From IMG/VR virus record IMGVR_UViG_3300029267_002119, positions 38,390 through 102,389 of that record: DNA of 64,000 bases, one strand, 5' to 3'. Of this stretch, positions 24,149 through 49,426 are shown piece after piece. Both the position numbers and the translations under genes were made by a program. The DNA comes from a virus. Position 1 is the stretch's first letter; each line of letters opens with the position of its first letter. The notes below the pieces were generated by a model. It saw only the letters and a program-made list of their open reading frames with translations. It was not told where the DNA came from and made no database searches.

Positions 24149-24996
24149 AAAAAAGCCTGCCCCAGGTCGAGCGGGAACTCGAACTCGCAGTTGCAGAGGC
24201 GGCCCTGGCAGCTGACCTGGACGCTCGTGTCCACGTCGGCCTCCATCGCGTTGTAGACCTCGCGGAGATGGTTCCGGTCGTCCTTCGGGAGCGCCTTCAC
24301 CAGATCCAGGTCTCGCTTCGGATCGCCGAGCGTGATCATCTGCTTCTGCTTCTGTGGTGGCTGACCGTCAGCCCCAGGAACTTCTGTCTCGACCTCGAGC
24401 TGCTCGAGCCTGGCGAGGATCGCGTAGGACCGCAGATCCTTCTGGTTCAGGCTCAGGCCCGTGAGCTTCTCCTCGTGGCTGGCCGTCAGCACGCGCACGA
24501 TCGCCTTCCGGCCGGACCGGCGGAGCACGACCTCGACGCGGCGCTTCGACACCCGATCCTCGGGGACCTCGGTCATCTCGATCGTCCGCAGGTCGAGCTG
24601 CTTGTTCTTGTTCAGGTGGCCGCAGCGCGGGCACGTCCGCTCGAACTTGTAGACGTCACCGCAGGAGCAGCGGCGGAGGAAGATCCGCATCGCCAGCCGG
24701 TCCGACGACGTGATCGGCAGACCCGCCTTCAGGTCGTCACCGATGATCGCCTTGATCTTCTCAGGATCGGTCTCGTTGCCGATCTTCTCGCAGCAGGCCG
24801 AGAGGAGCATGGTTGTCCGCTCGTGAACAGGCAGCTCGTCATCGTCCATGATGTCTTCCTCCGTGCCGGTCATCTCACGGAGGACGATGGTCTTGTGGAC
24901 CTTGCCCTGCTCGTCCACGTAACCGCAGGGGAGTTGGTACTGCCCCCTACCACGCCCAAATACTTCAACACCCGGTACGTCTACGATCCCCGGCAC
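24097..24996 (-). CDS. Tail assembly chaperone, zero-frame product (T4 gp26-like family, zinc ribbon)
   Basis: 299 residues from GTG at 24996, which has AGGAGG five bases upstream; the long frame further upstream is a shadow of the endonuclease gene. After a short N-terminus the protein has VHKTIVLREMTGTEEDIMDD, a TTMLLSACCEKIG helix, SDRLAMRIFLRRCSCGDVYK and CPRCGHLNKNKQLDL. This layout resembles the T4 baseplate/gp26 family, including a CxC...CxxC zinc ribbon. The order tube, chaperone, tape measure and the frameshift near its 3' end identify it as the gpG counterpart. The first 18 codons are duplicated, with changed codons, 1.4 kb upstream beyond a homing endonuclease gene. Confidence 0.7.
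   Translation of the reverse strand: MPGIVDVPGVEVFGRGRGQYQLPCGYVDEQGKVHKTIVLREMTGTEEDIMDDDELPVHERTTMLLSACCEKIGNETDPEKIKAIIGDDLKAGLPITSSDRLAMRIFLRRCSCGDVYKFERTCPRCGHLNKNKQLDLRTIEMTEVPEDRVSKRRVEVVLRRSGRKAIVRVLTASHEEKLTGLSLNQKDLRSYAILARLEQLEVETEVPGADGQPPQKQKQMITLGDPKRDLDLVKALPKDDRNHLREVYNAMEADVDTSVQVSCQGRLCNCEFEFPLDLGQAFFSNTGAEPVTAEGLNWL
24148..24154 (-). promoter_or_regulatory. Programmed -1 frameshift slippery site, T TTT TTC
   Basis: Read on the minus strand in the chaperone frame, GCT TTT TTC holds the heptamer T TTT TTC, a canonical X XXY YYZ slippery site. It occurs at codons 282-283, 16 codons before the zero-frame stop. After a -1 shift the frame stays open for 111 codons up to the tape measure gene. 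I see no obvious strong downstream pseudoknot by eye. Confidence 0.65.
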
Positions 24997-25976
24997 GCTT
25001 TCCTCCTGACCACGCCTCGCTTGCGTAACTCGTCGTAGACGGTGCCCAACGGAACACCGATCTTCTCTGACACCTCGTTCAGCGACAGCCCCTTCCTGTA
25101 GAGCTGTTCCGCTTTGTTTCTCTTCGATGGTGCGAAGCTGGAGTTGAGCAGCTTGGCTTCGGACACACCGCGAACCACACCGGCGATGTGGAGCACACGC
25201 AGCACACTCGACTTCGCACGCCCGACCTCGCGTCCAACCTCGATCGCCGACATGCCGCTCTCGTAGAGCTTGATGATCTGCTTGCGCACCGCCCGATTCA
25301 TGCGCGTGCGGAACCTGTGATCGACTAGCGTCTCCGGTCGTAGGTCCAAGATCCCGCGCCTCTTCAGCTGGGCCTTGCGCCACAGCTTCAATCTGATCTC
25401 TGAATGCCTCTCCCGAAAGCGCTCGATCTTCTCGGCACCCTCCGGGGAGAGCCAGCCTTTGACCTCGATCAAGTAGTCGATCTCGCCACCGCTGTTGTAG
25501 ATCCAGAAGTCCGGCAGGTAGTCGTCGAACTGCTCGACCTCGTAGTCCCAGTTGAACCTGCGCGCATCGAGCCAGGCGGCGGTCTTCGCCTCCCACGAAG
25601 ATCGGAAGAAGAACACGCGACCCAGCCGATCGCGGAAGGTGAAGCCGCGACACCTGTCTCGTCCGCGAACATCGACACCCTCTTCGAGCAGCACGCGCTT
25701 GATCGGGCTCGCCGAGCACTCGAACCACTCGGCCAACCAGTTGACCGACTCCCCGGCCTCGTAGCGACTGACAATCTCGGCCCGCGCGCTCGGATCATCC
25801 GCGAACAGATGCCGCTTGCGTGCCGGATGACGGCGCGTGCGCCCCAGCTCGCGACGGACGAGCCAGACGGACAACCCAGTCGCAGCCGAGACCTCATCCA
25901 GCGTAGCTCCGGCCTTGTATCGACAGCGCACCTCGGCACGCTTCGCCGCAGACACGTTGGTCCTCGGGCGTCCCAT
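24981..25976 (-). CDS. Homing endonuclease, PD-(D/E)XK type flanked by helix-turn-helix repeats
   Basis: 331 residues from ATG at 25976 (GGAGG four to five bases upstream; a GTG at 26009 has no such site). Two helix-turn-helix repeats come first (RYKAGATLDEVSAATGLSVW; RYEAGESVNWLAEWFECSAS). The nuclease core follows: FRSSWEAKTAAWL, then YLPDFWIYNSGG and DYLIEVKGWLSPEG, giving the E...D...ExK pattern of PD-(D/E)XK nucleases related to Vsr/EDxHD homing enzymes. Two more helix-turn-helix repeats end the protein (LYESGMSAIEVGREVGRAKS; LYRKGLSLNEVSEKIGVPLG). Its stop overlaps the chaperone start by 16 bases. GC is lower than in neighbours by eye, which suggests recent arrival. Confidence 0.7.
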   Translation of the reverse strand: MGRPRTNVSAAKRAEVRCRYKAGATLDEVSAATGLSVWLVRRELGRTRRHPARKRHLFADDPSARAEIVSRYEAGESVNWLAEWFECSASPIKRVLLEEGVDVRGRDRCRGFTFRDRLGRVFFFRSSWEAKTAAWLDARRFNWDYEVEQFDDYLPDFWIYNSGGEIDYLIEVKGWLSPEGAEKIERFRERHSEIRLKLWRKAQLKRRGILDLRPETLVDHRFRTRMNRAVRKQIIKLYESGMSAIEVGREVGRAKSSVLRVLHIAGVVRGVSEAKLLNSSFAPSKRNKAEQLYRKGLSLNEVSEKIGVPLGTVYDELRKRGVVRRKACRGS

Positions 25977-26009
25977 ACTACCTCCGCGTTTCCGCAGACA
26001 TAGTAGCAC

Positions 26010-26345
26010 TTAGTCGCCCCCTCCCAAAGAAGCGAGCTGCTCCTCGGTCACAGCCTGCGTCGCTCGGAGCTTCACCGGACCGGGGTCCGTGGCATCCCAG
26101 ATGACCTCGATCCGCTGGAACCCGTCATCTCGGTTGGCGCCCTGCTCGGCGACCAGCGCCAGCGCTTCGGGCGACAGGTGGAAGCGAAAGCCGGGGTAGT
26201 CCTGGTCCCACTCCCCAGACGGTAGCGAGCTAGCGTCCGGGCCGAACTCGCCCGGCGTGAACGTGAGCACGTACTGCGGCCGATAGGGAATCTCGTAGGC
26301 GCGGAGCACGATGTCGCCGTTGTCGTCCCGGGCGTAGTCCTTCAT
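26010..26345 (-). CDS. Unknown 111-residue protein inside the chaperone insertion
   Basis: ATG at 26345 overlaps the TGA of the interrupted chaperone start, so ribosomes finishing that 19-residue peptide could reinitiate here. The product begins MKDYARDDNGDIVLRAYEIP and has QYVLTFTPGEFGPDASSLPS and RIEVIWDATDPGPVKLRATQ. No family recognised. It does not resemble the chaperone. It may be a passenger of the mobile insertion or a displaced tail gene; the sequence alone cannot decide. Confidence 0.5.
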   Translation of the reverse strand: MKDYARDDNGDIVLRAYEIPYRPQYVLTFTPGEFGPDASSLPSGEWDQDYPGFRFHLSPEALALVAEQGANRDDGFQRIEVIWDATDPGPVKLRATQAVTEEQLASLGGGD

Positions 26346-26401
26346 CGCCCACGGCCCTTGCCGAACACCTCTACCCCCGGAACATCAACAATTCCTGGCA
26401 C
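26342..26401 (-). pseudogene. Orphaned first exon-like end of the chaperone gene (19 codons)
   Basis: GTG at 26401 directly follows the TAA of the upstream gene and has AAGGAGG seven bases upstream, so it looks like the original start of the chaperone gene. The frame encodes VPGIVDVPGVEVFGKGRGR and then hits TGA, which overlaps the ATG of the next gene. The same peptide, with K changed to R, restarts at 24996 in front of the complete chaperone gene. This copy therefore marks the left junction of the insertion. Confidence 0.7.
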
Positions 26402-26887
26402 TTATGCCTCCTTCTCGAGCGCGTACCTCACCAAGCGCTCGAACCTCTCTGGACTCTCGGCCAGCACCTTGAGACCGTCTGCGACGGTCCATCCCCAACG
26501 CTGGCAGAAGACGAACAGCTCGTCGTAGACCCCGGTCGGGAGAGCGACCCGAACGATGGTCGTGCCGTCCCCTCCGTTGCCCCTGTGGGCCACGTAGGAG
26601 CGCAGGAGAGCCTCGATCACGGCGGAGATGGTCCCGTGGCCCTCCTCCTTGATTTTGGCCTCCAGAGCGCCCCGGAGGACGTGGGAGAGCTGCATGTTGG
26701 TACGTCGACCAGACGGGTGCACACGCGCGGGCGCGGGCAGGCGCCTGTCCCCGTCGAGCCACTCCAGCACGACCTGGCGGATGACCTCACTCTGGGAGCG
26801 GCCGGTCTCCTCGCAGTAGGACGCGAGCGTGTCGTCTAAGTCCTCTGGAATGACAAAGTTGAGACGGGGCTTCAAGCTGGCTTCCAT
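26402..26887 (-). CDS. Double ribbon-helix-helix protein
   Basis: 161 residues from ATG at 26887, with GAGGAGG eight bases upstream; a start at 26926 is possible but less well supported. The first domain (LKPRLNFVIPEDLDDTLASY, then CEETGRSQSEVIRQVVLEWL) is a typical CopG/Arc ribbon-helix-helix: one strand, two helices with a turn. A second, looser copy follows at about residues 60-100 (RRTNMQLSHVLRGALEAKIK, HGTISAVIEALLRSYVAHRG). Such proteins bind operators as dimers. Finding one between the tube gene and the chaperone gene is unusual; it may regulate the late operon or belong to the homing insertion. Confidence 0.6.
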   Translation of the reverse strand: MEASLKPRLNFVIPEDLDDTLASYCEETGRSQSEVIRQVVLEWLDGDRRLPAPARVHPSGRRTNMQLSHVLRGALEAKIKEEGHGTISAVIEALLRSYVAHRGNGGDGTTIVRVALPTGVYDELFVFCQRWGWTVADGLKVLAESPERFERLVRYALEKEA

Positions 26888-28670: not shown

Positions 28671-29156
28671 CTACGCCGAGATGATCTCCACCTCCAGCTC
28701 CTCGACGGTGAGGGTCAGCTCTTGGAGAGCGACCTCGGAGCCGGTGGCGTCCTTGTCCGCCATCGGCTTCACCGTGGAGGGCCAGCACTCGCGCAGGCGC
28801 ATGATCCGGGAAGGCGACCCGTCGATCCCGAACTCGTCGGTGATGTGGAACTCCATGATCATCAGGTCGGAGCGGTAGGTGTCCGCCGCGCCGTTGATCA
28901 CGTCGATGAGCCACTTGTAGAAGTCGCTCTCGCGCTGGACGGTGCCCTTCATCAGCTGGCACTCGCCCACCGTCTGGATGCCCGGGTACTTCCGGGTCCA
29001 GCGGTACACGCCCTCGCGGTACTCCGCCGGGTCGATGCTGACCTCGGGCGTCGAGACGGTCGAGAACCCGGCGACGGGATCGAGATGCCCCCCGGCCGGA
29101 TCGACCACGTGAAACCTGTAGTTCAAATACGGATCAGTGGACGCTGCACGAGCCAT
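28671..29156 (-). CDS. Tail tube protein (paralogue B, gp19-like)
   Basis: 161 residues. The start (MARAASTDPYLNYRFHVVD), the centre (STPEVSIDPAEYREGVYRWT, with TVGECQLMKG) and the ending (KDATGSEVALQELTLTVEEL) align with tube protein A and with the T4 gp19 family. It directly follows the sheath gene in reading order, as in most myoviruses, so this copy is more likely the main tube subunit and A the tail-end or distal-tube variant. That assignment is inference. Confidence 0.8.
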   Translation of the reverse strand: MARAASTDPYLNYRFHVVDPAGGHLDPVAGFSTVSTPEVSIDPAEYREGVYRWTRKYPGIQTVGECQLMKGTVQRESDFYKWLIDVINGAADTYRSDLMIMEFHITDEFGIDGSPSRIMRLRECWPSTVKPMADKDATGSEVALQELTLTVEELEVEIISA

Positions 29157-32009: not shown

Positions 32010-32330
32010 CTACTTGGGCTCGTCGTCGTCGGTGATCACGATGGGGGTGTCGTCCGGCCTGGCCGCCCTGGTCGGCCGGGCCGGTGAGGTCTTCTTGGGA
32101 GCTGGTGCGGGCTTCGGCTTGACCACGGTCGCCTGCTTCGTCGCGCGGAGGGCGTTGGCCTCGCGATCGGACAGCTTGCGGAGGCGCTTCGCGCGCAGGC
32201 CGCGCACGACTCCCTTGTTGGAGGGGCTGGCCTCGAAGATCTGGCCGGGACGGTGCGCCTTCGTCACGCCTCCGGGAAAGTCCACCATCCACGGACCGCG
32301 CCCGGTGACCTGGTAGTACTGAGTCCTCAT
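32010..32330 (-). CDS. Small basic protein before the sheath gene
   Basis: 106 residues. The first half (MRTQYYQVTGRGPWMVDFPG) is compact; the second is Lys/Ala/Pro rich (KPKPAPAPKKTSPARPTRAA) and then acidic (ITDDDEPK). It overlaps the upstream neck gene by four bases. Similar small proteins with a low-complexity tail precede sheath genes in other myoviruses, but I recognise no family. Confidence 0.5.
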   Translation of the reverse strand: MRTQYYQVTGRGPWMVDFPGGVTKAHRPGQIFEASPSNKGVVRGLRAKRLRKLSDREANALRATKQATVVKPKPAPAPKKTSPARPTRAARPDDTPIVITDDDEPK

Positions 32331-37994: not shown

Positions 37995-38743
37995 GTGACA
38001 CCATGAGCGATATGAGAGTCTGGATGCCGCTGTACGCGCAGGCGCCATCTGCTCAAGATCGACAACACCTCTCGGGAATCGGACGACGTGAATCTGCTTC
38101 CACATCCCGAACAATCCAACGACGTGCGCTGGACAGCAGACTGAGCGGCAACTCTCTCTGGAATCGGCCGACCGCATCGTCCGCATCTAAGCAGCCACTT
38201 CTCGCGATCAGGATGAGTTGCGCGCGCCAGACTCGCCGCCTTGACGTCGGCCGATAATGGAATCATCCCCTCCGGGGTAGATCGTAAGGAGAGCCGTCCA
38301 GCCGGACTCTCTGAGAGCCAGCCGTCATCGACGGCGTCATCGACGGCGGTGTCTACCTCGAAGCGGAGATTGTTCGGACACTCATAGCAAACCTCACCGC
38401 CACCATCGAACTGGCACCACCGGCCCGACAGCGCGTTGCACAACTCGCTGAAGGTCATCGATCCCCACAGCTCAAGCGTTCGGAAGATGGCCTGTCGGAT
38501 AGCAAGCTCTCGCTGACGGAGGTAGCCATCATCCACCCCGTGATCGCCGGGTCGCAGTTCAAGCGTGTACCGGCAGTGCGGAAACCTAAAACACCCCCAG
38601 AATGCCTTACCATCGCGTCTCCTGTAGCGAACGACCATCCCAGCATCACCACAGCTGGCGCATACCGGAGGAACAACGCCCTCCTTAGTCTCCGTGCTTG
38701 ATTCGCACCCAACCAGCGCGTGCCGGAAGCGATTCTCCAACAT
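37991..38743 (-). CDS. Zinc-ribbon protein (topoisomerase-type C4 finger)
   Basis: 250 residues from ATG 38743, with GAGGAAG upstream; the gene begins inside the 3' end of the CoiA-like gene. VCASCGDAGMVVRYRRRDGK and then FWGCFRFPHCRYT form the C4 zinc ribbon seen at the C-termini of type I topoisomerases (CxxC ... GxFxxC..xP.C). A second C4 site lies near the C-terminus (LRCGRCGRPIPER; DCSGCGSRF). The middle has an AIRQAIFRTLELWGSMTFSE helix region, perhaps a winged helix. Likely DNA-binding partner of the CoiA-like nuclease. Confidence 0.6.
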   Translation of the reverse strand: MLENRFRHALVGCESSTETKEGVVPPVCASCGDAGMVVRYRRRDGKAFWGCFRFPHCRYTLELRPGDHGVDDGYLRQRELAIRQAIFRTLELWGSMTFSELCNALSGRWCQFDGGGEVCYECPNNLRFEVDTAVDDAVDDGWLSESPAGRLSLRSTPEGMIPLSADVKAASLARATHPDREKWLLRCGRCGRPIPERVAAQSAVQRTSLDCSGCGSRFTSSDSREVLSILSRWRLRVQRHPDSHIAHGVT

Positions 38744-39318: not shown

Positions 39319-39369
39319 GTCTTCCGACACCTCGCCGGTTTTCTCGGCCTGCACTGAGCGTCCGAAGTG

Positions 39370-39380
39370 CTGGGTAGAAC
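39370..39380 (+). promoter_or_regulatory. CTGGGTAGAAC promoter-like motif with short leader
   Basis: TAGAAC ends 20 bases before ATG 39401. Unlike the leaderless copies, an AAGGAG ribosome site lies between, so this transcript would carry a short leader of about 14 bases. Confidence 0.55.
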
Positions 39381-39400
39381 AGTCTCAAGGAGCGATCTCT

Positions 39401-39859
39401 ATGACTAAGGACGAGGCGATCGATCTCATGCTGGTATTGACCAAGGACAAACCTCAATCGGGACAGACGAATTGGAACGGACTGCGCACCCGCGTCGCCA
39501 AGTTCGTGGAAATCATCAATACCGGCAACTGCGAGATGGCGGCCGATGACGATGGTCTCACGATCGCCATGCGAAAACAGAACAACGGCCGTCTGATCTG
39601 GTCCATCAAGTTCCTCTGCAACTGCCCGTCAACACAAGGCAGAGTCGTTCTACAATTCGCCCCCGACACCTGGCTCTATGACCACAAGGCAAAGCGCGCG
39701 CTCCAAGCTCTCGGACTATGCGACCCAAAGCCGCCCTCACCTAAAGAGCTGTGTCGTAGGCGCCGAGCAAGGGAAGTGCGCGTGCACGAGGGGCGCGCCC
39801 GGGGCTCTAACAAGCCCTCATCGCCGCCGCCCGCTTCGGAGTCACCTTCCGCGCCCTGA
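39401..39859 (+). CDS. Unknown protein, single rightward gene
   Basis: 152 residues from ATG 39401 (AAGGAG about eight bases upstream). It starts MTKDEAIDLMLVLTKDKPQS and has a compact region with TNWNGLRTRVAKFVEIINTG and GRLIWSIKFLCNCPSTQGRV. A basic, Ser/Pro-rich tail (ELCRRRRAREVRVHEGRARG) follows. The 3' end overlaps the convergent endonuclease gene by 53 bases. No family recognised. Confidence 0.5.
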   Translation: MTKDEAIDLMLVLTKDKPQSGQTNWNGLRTRVAKFVEIINTGNCEMAADDDGLTIAMRKQNNGRLIWSIKFLCNCPSTQGRVVLQFAPDTWLYDHKAKRALQALGLCDPKPPSPKELCRRRRAREVRVHEGRARGSNKPSSPPPASESPSAP

Positions 39860-40913
39860 ACCCAGGGACCTTCACGTGGCGGCCGGTCTTGCCCTTGCGG
39901 ATGTTGGCCAGGCACTCGGGCGTGACCACGTTGCCCAGCTCGTCGGCGAGCTTACGAGCTGAGAGTAGCTTGTCGTCCCTGAACCGTTCTTTGACGAACC
40001 TGATCTGCTCGTCCGTCAGCTTCGTGTTCCTCCGGCCGCCGCGCGCCTTCTTCGAGATCCGGCGGCGGGTCTCCGGGTTCTGCATGTTGCTGGTGCGGGT
40101 CGTGTCCTTCAGGTGAGCTGGGTTCACGCAGGCGCGGTTCGCGCAGGTGTGGGCGACGTCGTTCTCAGCCATCTTGCCGTTGGCGATCAGGTAGGAGACC
40201 AGGTGGGCGCCCCGGACCCGGCCGCAGATGTTGAAGGCGCCGTAGCCCGAGCTGTCCTTCGCGGCCTGCCACTCCCAGCAGTCGTCGGGTCCGGCCTTGG
40301 CGACCTTCTTCCAGAAGCGCCTGGTTGTCTTCTCATCTGCCTCGATCGGACTGCTCCTGCCGCGTCTCCTCTTCCCGCGATCCGATCGCGCCTTCTTCGG
40401 CACCACTGGTACGTCCTGCCGCTGCCAGGTCCGTCCCAGCTTGATGTCCGACAGGTGAGGCTGGCTGACGCCGAACTCCTCGGCCAGTGCCCGTTGGGAC
40501 TCCCCCGCTTCCAGCCGGGCGCGGATCTCGTCCACCTTCGCCCAGTCGAGTTTGGCGCGACCGTTCTTCTCCCCACTCTGGTCCGCGAATCGGCCGCGCT
40601 CAACCATGTCGGCCGAGTTGTCAGCTGGCGTGCCGAGAACCAGGTGTCGTGGGTTCACGCAGGCCGGGTCGTCGCATGTGTGCCGCACGAGCGCGCCGTC
40701 CGGGATCTGACCGTTCGCCTGTACATAGGCCACCCGGTGGGCGAGCAGAGAGCGGTTGTCCAGCCTGAAGACGCCATAGCCGCGCGCGTTCTTGCTCGCC
40801 GTCCACAGGACGCAGGCGTCTGGAGCGGCAAGCCGGTCTACGGCCGAGGGCTCGATCTTCTGGTTCCATCGCTCCAGGTCGCGCGGCGAGAACTTGGGGT
40901 AGTTGGTGGGCAC
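39807..40913 (-). CDS. Homing endonuclease with two HNH domains
   Basis: 368 residues from GTG 40913, which has GGAGG six bases upstream; a GTG at 40958 has no such site. It is built of two HNH-plus-helix-turn-helix units. Unit 1: CVLWTASKNARGYGVFRLDN, LVRHTCDDPACVNPRHLVLG, then a LDWAKVDEIRARLEAGESQR helix-turn-helix. Unit 2: CWEWQAAKDSSGYGAFNICG, VAHTCANRACVNPAHLKDTT, then LTDEQIRFVKERFRDDKLLS. Both keep the H...N..H catalytic pattern (HTC..xxC.NPxHL). It sits after the capsid terminator. Probably a free-standing homing enzyme; the internal duplication is unusual. Confidence 0.8.
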   Translation of the reverse strand: MPTNYPKFSPRDLERWNQKIEPSAVDRLAAPDACVLWTASKNARGYGVFRLDNRSLLAHRVAYVQANGQIPDGALVRHTCDDPACVNPRHLVLGTPADNSADMVERGRFADQSGEKNGRAKLDWAKVDEIRARLEAGESQRALAEEFGVSQPHLSDIKLGRTWQRQDVPVVPKKARSDRGKRRRGRSSPIEADEKTTRRFWKKVAKAGPDDCWEWQAAKDSSGYGAFNICGRVRGAHLVSYLIANGKMAENDVAHTCANRACVNPAHLKDTTRTSNMQNPETRRRISKKARGGRRNTKLTDEQIRFVKERFRDDKLLSARKLADELGNVVTPECLANIRKGKTGRHVKVPGFRARKVTPKRAAAMRAC

Positions 40914-47524: not shown

Positions 47525-49426
47525 CTACCGGCCGTGGAATCTTCGGGACATCGAGAGCAGCTCCTTCCGGGAGAACTTCCCCCCAGGCGGTACAGCGATG
47601 CCGCCGCCGTTGGTTCGCCGGAGTAGGCCGCGCACGTCCTCGAAGAACGCACGGCGCTCCCGATCGCGCCTGGCGAAGCCCGGATCATCCTTTGTCAGCT
47701 GGCCGAGCTTGTCCATGATCTCGGCGTGCCGCCGGTTCGACTCCCTGTACTTCCACTCCTCGAGCCGCCGCTCATAGTCCCACCGCTTCATCTCCTCCGG
47801 CGTCGCCTTCTTCGACTTCCCGACCGCAGGAGCCCTGGGCTTCGGCGCAGGCTTGGGCGCAGGCTTCGGCTTGGGAGTCCCCTCTTCCTCCTCGCCCTCC
47901 TTCTCCTCGGGCGCGGGTTCCTCGGGCTCTTCCTCCCCGCCAGGTGGCGGAGCCTCCGGCGGACCTCCCTGGGCACCGCCCATCGCATAGCTGGGCAGGT
48001 CGCCGGACTGCTCTTCTTCGGAGTCCTTCTTCTGCTGCTTCTCGATCTCCTTGATCTCCTCCTCCGAGAACTTGAGGATCTTCTCCTGAATCCAGCGGGT
48101 ACTGACCCACGGCTGGATCCGGCTCGCATAGTCGGCCGCCGCATTGAGGGTCTCGTAGGCCGACAGCTCCCAGATCCCCGAAGGAATGGTCATCTCGATC
48201 GTGAACTCGGGCTTCCAGGGATCGCGCACGCCTCGCGCGGCCAGGTGCGTGCGGATGATCCGCTCCCAGCCGATCTTCAGCTCGCGCTGGAGGTTCAAGG
48301 TCACCCTGGCCGCCCGCACGTCGTCGTTCGAGAGGATCGACTTCGACGGCGGAGCCTCGTCCTTGCCGAGGTAGGCGCGCGGGACCTTCAGCGTCGCATG
48401 GAGCATCTGCTTGAAGTACTCCACGTCATCGACAGCCTGGTAGTCGGGACCGGAGAGGACGTCCACCCGGGCCAGCTCGCGGCCCTCGCGAACGGCGATG
48501 AAGAAGTCCTCGTCTCTCGCCAGCGGGTTGTAGCGGAGATCCAGGCGACCGGAGCGGGGGTTGACCATCCGCTTCTTCTTGAGGTCCCTCTTCGCCTTCT
48601 GGAGGAACGACCCGACCTGATCGGATGGCACGTCCGTCGTGTCGATGTAGTAGGCGTAGCGAGCTGGCGCGCGTGTGAGCTTGTAGATCAGCACGCTGTC
48701 CTCGAGCATCACCAGGCGCTTCCAGATCCAACGGGCGCCCTCGGCGACGGAGACGCCGTAGGGAATGCGCCGCCGCGTCGCGCGCAGTCGGAAGTGGGCG
48801 ACCTGCCAGTCCTCGAACAGGGCGAGGCTCCTGGGGATCTCGACATTGCCTGCGAGCATCCGCCGCAGCTCTTGGCTGTTCGCGGTGAACTGGCCGGTCA
48901 CGTCCTGTACGAAGCCGATCAGGCCGCCGTCAAGCCGCTCGACGCGCCTCATCGTGGGCACGGGGAGCGTGTTGGTCCCGACGACGCCGTTCTCGGTGAT
49001 GAGCAGCTCGAGATAGTCGTTGCCCATCATCCCGAGACCGTACGCCTGCGGCCAGATCTCATCCTCGACCCGCAGCGTCCGATGCATCAGGTCGTCGCCC
49101 AGGCCCTTGATCGCACTGTCCTCCGACTGGACCCAGATGCATCGGCCGTCCTTGACCGAGGGCTGAGTCGCGTCATTAGCGAAGTAGTGGAAGGCCGAGT
49201 TGATGTCTGGGTACTCCTCCATCGCCTCGTAGTCGGCGAACCGATCCATGAGGGACTGGGAGACGGTGAGCAGGCCGCCGATGTCCTCGCGTCCCCAGAC
49301 CGTGAACATGCTGGGCACGTGATGCCGCATCGCCGCGACCGAGGGCGAGTCGGCTTTGGCGCGCTCCGCTTGAGGAGCGCCGAACACGTTTCGGAGCGCC
49401 TTGACCGCCCTATCGCGGAGGGCCAT
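47525..49426 (-). CDS. Portal protein, T4 gp20-like
   Basis: 633 residues. The N-terminal part has YEAMEEYPDINSAFHYFAND, a typical portal start, then GLGMMGNDYLELLITENGVV, RRIPYGVSVAEGARWIWKRL and VLIYKLTRAPARYAYYIDTT. This last block and VPSDQVGSFLQKAKRDLKKK are the gp20 core, followed by EDFFIAVREGRELARVDVLS and HATLKVPRAYLGKDEAPPSK. The C-terminal about 130 residues are a Pro/Glu/Lys-rich linker plus a helical tail, longer than T4 gp20 (524 residues). It forms the dodecameric DNA entry ring. The start overlaps the preceding Hint gene by 17 bases. Confidence 0.85.
   Translation of the reverse strand: MALRDRAVKALRNVFGAPQAERAKADSPSVAAMRHHVPSMFTVWGREDIGGLLTVSQSLMDRFADYEAMEEYPDINSAFHYFANDATQPSVKDGRCIWVQSEDSAIKGLGDDLMHRTLRVEDEIWPQAYGLGMMGNDYLELLITENGVVGTNTLPVPTMRRVERLDGGLIGFVQDVTGQFTANSQELRRMLAGNVEIPRSLALFEDWQVAHFRLRATRRRIPYGVSVAEGARWIWKRLVMLEDSVLIYKLTRAPARYAYYIDTTDVPSDQVGSFLQKAKRDLKKKRMVNPRSGRLDLRYNPLARDEDFFIAVREGRELARVDVLSGPDYQAVDDVEYFKQMLHATLKVPRAYLGKDEAPPSKSILSNDDVRAARVTLNLQRELKIGWERIIRTHLAARGVRDPWKPEFTIEMTIPSGIWELSAYETLNAAADYASRIQPWVSTRWIQEKILKFSEEEIKEIEKQQKKDSEEEQSGDLPSYAMGGAQGGPPEAPPPGGEEEPEEPAPEEKEGEEEEGTPKPKPAPKPAPKPRAPAVGKSKKATPEEMKRWDYERRLEEWKYRESNRRHAEIMDKLGQLTKDDPGFARRDRERRAFFEDVRGLLRRTNGGGIAVPPGGKFSRKELLSMSRRFHGR

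Follow-up and report, generated by a model that had tools for sequence, protein, structure and literature searches.

This locus raises the question of why the beginning of a single tail gene is present twice, and why the two copies spell nearly the same peptide in different codons. It lies in a 64,000-nucleotide stretch of a virus record (IMG/VR IMGVR_UViG_3300029267_002119, positions 38,390–102,389), which is referred to as the window and whose relevant features are listed in Table 1. The copies are about 1.4 kb apart, one on each side of a PD-(D/E)XK endonuclease gene and a small open reading frame (ORF).

Table 1. Features of the tail gene locus and of the tail tube gene (positions in the window)
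Feature	Position	Strand	Evidence or remark
Full tail gene opened by copy 2, 299 codons	24097..24996	-	PF12322/PHROG 150 baseplate hub-like; upstream of tape measure gene
Inserted element, 1405 bp including recoded copy	24949..26353	-	Alignment with L003/L004
Copy 2, recoded codons 1–16	24949..24996	-	Of the 15 codons after the start, 13 silently different; Lys to Arg at codon 15
PD-(D/E)XK endonuclease, 331 aa	24981..25976	-	Helix-turn-helix domains flank nuclease core; profile, alignment, structure model
Catalytic candidates E129, D156, E171, K173	Endonuclease residues
AGGAGG, ribosome-binding site of copy 2, within endonuclease gene	25002..25007	-	Sequence
Small ORF, 111 aa	26010..26345	-	No known family; found only with the window insertion
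Copy 1 reading frame VPGIVDVPGVEVFGKGRGR, GTG to TGA, 19 codons	26342..26401	-	TGA overlaps small-ORF ATG (ATGA)
Copy 1, native codons 1–16 of tail gene, left 5' of insertion	26354..26401	-	11/16 codons equal those of empty-site relative L003
AAGGAGG, native ribosome-binding site, now preceding shortened copy 1	26407..26413	-	Sequence; L003 has AAGGAGG at the equivalent place
Tail tube gene, empty site for the L017/L018 element	28671..29156	-	Comparison with element-bearing relatives
Four silent differences, window versus L014 (99.9% identical), within 19 bases	29112..29130	-	Tube element target

Duplicated tail gene start and its empty sites

Copy 1 (GTG CCA GGA ATT GTT GAT GTT CCG GGG GTA GAG GTG TTC GGC AAG GGC CGT GGG CGA TGA) directly follows the TAA of an upstream ribbon-helix-helix gene; the initial annotation had described a ribosome-binding site after the upstream stop and a 19-codon frame ending in TGA, and the sequence reads exactly so. 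Copy 2 (GTG CCG GGG ATC GTA GAC GTA CCG GGT GTT GAA GTA TTT GGG CGT GGT AGG GGG CAG TAC) opens the full-length gene, as had also been proposed; a functional replacement end thus stands beside a remnant. Copy 2 shares its first 16 bases with the endonuclease gene; the TAG stop of the latter lies across codons 5 and 6. The earlier count of 15 of 18 codons different, 14 of them silently and one by a Lys to Arg exchange, was obtained again. The duplication is real, but its extent had been overstated: by comparison with empty-site relatives only codons 1–16 are truly duplicated, since codons 17–18 of copy 2 (AGG GGG) are already native-like and copy 1 departs there. Unlike an intein or intron, the insert is not one that is removed from protein or RNA; with a stop in the upstream frame and a separate start and ribosome-binding site for copy 2, the gene needs no splicing. 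The 102-kb record was scanned for same-strand peptides repeated at most 3.5 kb apart in recoded DNA, and it held no second case comparable to this one (benchmark: 14 consecutive identical residues, of whose codons 12/14 differ, with the second copy opening an ORF).

The tail gene had been called a tail assembly chaperone. Its place just upstream of the tape measure gene is that of such chaperones, and on position this identity is plausible; the profile matches do not bear it out, as the gene matches PF12322 (T4 baseplate protein) at 24.3 bits against a cut-off of 24.5 and PHROG 150 (baseplate hub), and a chaperone family only at E = 0.087. The tail protein had zero relatives in the phage isolate collection.

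L003 and L004, two viral contigs of different sample origin, share the same neighbourhood at 87–89% DNA identity, and in both the tail gene is single and uninterrupted; it is likewise uninterrupted in a more distant relative (L011). As predicted from the window, the endonuclease-free relatives continue from GTGCCAGGG... directly into QY.LPCG codons and contain a single copy, and none of the relatives found combines both copies with absence of the endonuclease, the arrangement that had been named as counting against a homing insertion. The start of the L003/L004 gene is resembled by copy 1 and not by copy 2: copy 1 agrees with L003 at the usual rate for this gene pair, whereas copy 2 shares 4 of its first 15 codons with L003, versus 8–15 per 15 in the remainder of the gene. 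Because copy 2 follows the native sequence again from codon 17, the insertion point is placed directly after codon 16 (GGCAAGGGC^AGGGGGCAG in an uninterrupted gene), which gives the insert its length of 1405 bp. The small ORF is absent from L003/L004, including their whole records, and searches found no informative relative; a 14-residue match in L009 was taken as chance. Its overlap with the truncated start suggests that it uses a captured translation signal.

The putative endonuclease

In profile searches the window endonuclease matched several PHROGs of endonucleases or resolvases, as well as helix-turn-helix domains. P155, D156, F157, K173, and G174 are invariant across an alignment of 27 sequences, and all of them lie outside the pattern used for the search, as does the conserved PDF...(E/D)xKG motif as a whole; E129 was part of that pattern. 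In the predicted structure (mean pLDDT 85, about 96 in the core), helical domains stand on either side of a mixed alpha/beta core, which holds the conserved Glu, PD, and (D/E)xK residues of the PD-(D/E)XK family. Among solved structures the best matches were TnsA (probability 0.97–1.00), T7 endonuclease I, and their PD-(D/E)XK relatives; the catalytic domain of I-Bth0305I ranked lower. The E-values are weak for the whole model (best 0.0065), as expected for a multidomain query. The predicted core fold is like that of these three enzymes, whereas the domain order, with flanking helix-turn-helix domains, differs. No sequence relationship to solved homing endonucleases was detected. The phage isolate collection held no relatives of the window endonuclease and five weak matches to the endonuclease at the tail tube gene described below; a BcepSauron match was rejected as a nuclease, since it covers the helix-turn-helix repeats only.

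Recurrence at the tail tube gene and in other phages

A second element of the same design is present in L003 and L004, the relatives that have the empty tail gene site. Here (L017/L018) an endonuclease 34% identical to that of the window has inserted where the tail tube gene begins. The native tube start ATG GCT CGT GCA GCG TCC (MARAAS) continues in frame into this endonuclease, and the stop of the latter overlaps the new tube gene start ATG GCC CGC GCT GCA AGT ACA, so that 5/5 shared codons after the ATG are changed, including serine TCC to AGT. The tube gene site is empty in the window, L187, L188, L191, and L014.

At the target of this tube element, the window differs from its near-identical relative L014 by a tight group of silent changes. 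Clustering of 4 of the 10 window–L014 differences in 19 bases occurred in 0 of 200,000 random placements, and a second cluster, of three differences at 32046–32072, some non-silent, shows that differences can also group where there is no element target. Three of the four differences give the window CCG TAT TTG, as in the endonuclease-bearing phages, where L014 has CCT TAC CTG; the outgroups L188 and L191 have TAC CTG. The window's tube gene may therefore be a hybrid from partial copying off a carrier, and incomplete homing possibly left the group at 29112–29130 as a resistance patch.

Screening with a degenerate DNA pattern built on the nuclease core retrieved 115 viral stretches with 98 distinct ORFs, which were searched for a peptide present on both flanks of the endonuclease, and each candidate was then read individually. 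Three further clear cases emerged: a gene starting MRIFVFGSN with 6/8 codons changed (L067), a tube gene starting MARAVDTDL with 6/8 changed (L102/L123/L158), and a tube gene starting MARAIDT with 5/6 changed (L068). The repeat is more diverged in L073 and L086/L135, which involve the same FVFGSN gene family, and in L073 the divergence includes amino acids. A similar arrangement at an FVFGSN-like gene in L195 has a third-position G+C of 59% in the first 28 codons and 86% thereafter; a native remnant was looked for at this locus, and none was recognised. The apparent mirror form, with the 3' end of the upstream gene replaced and the displaced native end fused to the endonuclease, is seen in L088/L116/L149 and L179. 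The closest relative of the window endonuclease (35% identity) sits after the sheath gene of L151, where the last 15 sheath codons share 3/12 same-residue codons with L187, versus roughly 50–95% in upstream blocks. These candidate 3'-end cases (L088, L179, and L151) are weaker. In an automatic duplication scan, 6 of 89 reached a score of at least 40 versus 1.0 expected; since this is only a modest excess over chance, the weaker cases rest on anatomy. Given this recurrence, at the tube gene and at other loci, a one-off accident in the window appears unlikely.

A looser example comes from the cultured Agrobacterium phage OLIVR4, whose endonuclease is 49% identical to that of L067 and sits at the very start of a gene. 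Its reading frame opens with the native ATG GCT GAC (MAD) of that gene, which runs without interruption in the relatives Milano and 7-7-1, where the endonuclease is absent; empty target sites in close relatives are thus available for this element as well as for that of the window (L003/L004). The new start and scattered codons up to about codon 66 differ from Milano and 7-7-1. At codons 46–58, around FVFGSN, 12/13 codons differ from both phages, and these two agree with each other at nearly all of the codons; the amino acids change here too, which is why the example is looser. RMF-like segments flanking the OLIVR4 endonuclease were rejected as a duplication because both are native in Milano and 7-7-1, and only the recoded stretch is counted.

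Other candidates were set aside: L108 (methyltransferase-like) and L164 (an antisense endonuclease with two copies of a 40-residue end) are too tangled to count, and matches in L138, L141, and L172 look like paralogous genes, inteins, or HNH genes. In genome contigs the pattern gave two archaeal matches, L180 and L181, and no clear duplicated gene end was found in L181. L086/L135 carry an extra remnant, IFVFGSN plus stop, flanked by the native start and the endonuclease, a pattern that two successive invasions of the gene start would leave.

A group I intron and an endonuclease encoded next to it can home collaboratively, as is known from psbA and F-CphI of cyanophage S-PM2. L068 and L102/L158 resemble this system in having a group I intron (RF00028 in Rfam; 87.6 bits in L068, 75.1 bits in L158) that starts near or directly after ...TDxYH, the recoded exon, and an endonuclease gene located outside it; they differ in that a recoded exon start is also present. 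The intron lies at 1797–2073 in L068 and 1181–1457 in L158, and L102 has the same sequence as L158 there, so the intron is common to both. By eye, L151 also has a group I intron after VARAVETDPYH. No intron was seen beside the recoded start of the window and L017 elements (the Rfam search covered L068, L158, and L017).

Insertions of other kinds were noticed in the same set of phages. An intein interrupts the P-loop of a kinase-like gene in L003/L004 (about 880–2916; GGMG^C...HN^SGKS) and is absent from the window; an HNH gene accompanies it on the other strand. In the G002 record, an intein-like insertion at 106782–108117 (CLRGDSQIW...VVHN) corresponds to an empty site in the window's phage at about window position 48677, and an HNH gene at 39367–40168 interrupts a gene that the window's phage has intact. 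At about 96601–99131 of the G002 record, a GTCGGAACCACAACCCGTTCCGATGGGACCGCGAG repeat array lies beside a possible TnpB/Cas12-like gene, possibly a phage-borne CRISPR; this place is occupied by HNH genes in the window's phage.

Probable homing with a recoded replacement end and its alternatives

The empty sites, the second element of the same design, and the further cases support the homing insertion proposed in the initial annotation as the probable origin of the duplication. We consider it quite probable that the insert is a homing element of the free-standing type, which repairs the gene it breaks by bringing a recoded replacement for the gene end. The endonuclease would recognise the first tail gene codons in element-free phages and cut them during mixed infection, and repair off the carrier would copy in the element plus its own codons 1–16, which keep the protein, bring their own ribosome-binding site, and differ at nearly every codon. 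Recoding would hide the target from the enzyme; it would also remove homology, so that any repair event restoring the gene would have to bring in the endonuclease too. The first gene of the element would now be served, via the ATGA overlap, by the native start and ribosome-binding site that the insertion displaced. These arrangements lead us to infer cleavage, immunity, and homing, and also that selection caused the recoding.

The alternative that weighs most holds that copy 2 is an ordinary gene start captured from a distant homologue, whose differences are neutral, old divergence, the element still being able to home. We regard this as possible, if on the whole improbable. The L011 gene uses other codons for an almost identical peptide, which shows that silent sites can saturate under a conserved peptide; the amino acid divergence in L073 and a third-position G+C of 40% in copy 2, versus 89% in the remainder of the tail gene, also speak for a foreign end. 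Against this, copy 1 is low as well (53%), so that low G+C alone is no mark of foreign origin, and a peptide-level pattern run against 2.9 million viral contigs turned up no donor whose native start resembles copy 2. The differing codons, moreover, exceed what random choice would give. Pooled over the five clear cases, 35/41 same-residue codons differ between the copies, where 28.4/41 are expected from the codon usage of each phage (P = 0.0075) and 28.8/41 from uniform codon choice (P = 0.018), in a pool in which L068 and L102 are related, the small cases are individually non-significant, and the excess comes mainly from the window (13/14 differ; P = 0.008 by codon usage, 0.036 by uniform choice). 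Active avoidance of the native codons is thereby moderately favoured.

It is unlikely that an ordinary free-standing endonuclease gene landed at the gene start by chance, the repeated peptide being a by-product with no role in immunity or spread: T4 free-standing homing genes do often overlap their neighbours and use their signals (PMC2988022), but this layout recurs at three genes that are unrelated to one another and involves different endonuclease family members, and in several cases the endonuclease stop overlaps or abuts the new start. That copy 1 is a leader peptide or attenuator regulating the downstream genes, its likeness kept for translation, would fit its strong ribosome-binding site and coupling to the small ORF; we reject this as highly improbable, since the relatives have no such leader, copy 1 simply equals their gene start, and the counterpart remnant in L017 is fused in frame to the endonuclease instead. 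An assembly or strain-mixture artefact was also rejected and is least credible of all. All sequences are metagenome assemblies, yet an independent 275-kb contig is 100% identical to the window's phage across 101,866 bp and a third contig, L014, has 10 mismatches in 9,851 bp and an identical left junction, so that three separate contigs agree at this junction and two over the entire element; as independent contigs share the duplication, it is not an assembly accident. L003 and L004 in turn concur on the empty tail gene site and on the tube element.

A homing element with its own replacement end has its nearest natural counterpart in the mobile ORFs (mORFs) of fungal mitochondria, found for example in atp6 of Allomyces macrogynus and in atp6, atp9, cox2, and nad3 of Glomus (PMC3630166). 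These likewise place an endonuclease ORF in a gene and supply a replacement gene end, leaving the native end duplicated, with DNA 64–81% identical and the protein largely kept; their authors explain the replacement ends by transfer from another species (PMC3630166). The mORFs replace 3' ends and encode LAGLIDADG or GIY-YIG enzymes in mitochondria, none of which applies to the window element, whereas the clear phage cases (window, L017, L067, L068, and L102) involve 5' ends with start codon and ribosome-binding site and PD-(D/E)XK enzymes. Engineered home-and-rescue drives (HomeR, PMC7968924; cleave-and-rescue) are alike in combining a homing nuclease on an essential gene with a recoded gene piece, which in HomeR rescues carriers and keeps the copied element inseparable from rescue (PMC7968924). 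HomeR uses Cas9 in insects and recodes a 3' end, whereas the window element appears to be natural and acts at a 5' end.

Among phages, the seg and mob genes of T4-like phages are also intron-less, lie between or within genes, and use neighbouring transcription and translation signals, but the known T4-like free-standing endonucleases insert beside their target or split a gene (PMC2988022). That review and a survey of phage nuclease genes gave no mention of duplicated or recoded target gene ends under the terms searched, and a limited search of open-licence full texts found no published phage precedent for a homing element with a recoded end.

Beyond the window, we lean, with little more than even confidence, toward natural home-and-rescue drives being a widespread but unrecognised phage class: PD-(D/E)XK elements at the ends of conserved, often essential genes, in whose replacement ends selection would have driven synonymous codons to maximal difference, so that immunity, rescue, and co-inheritance are combined. 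If so, evolution would have reached the recoded-rescue principle that is used in engineered gene drives, and homing genes could reside safely in essential coding sequence without an intron or intein. Partial copying of a replacement end into an element-free phage, as may have happened in the window's tube gene, would create resistance, and short patches of silent differences in phage genes can be footprints of homing and not of drift. The invasion of essential genes by selfish genes becomes directly testable in phages, including the cultured OLIVR4, Milano, and 7-7-1.
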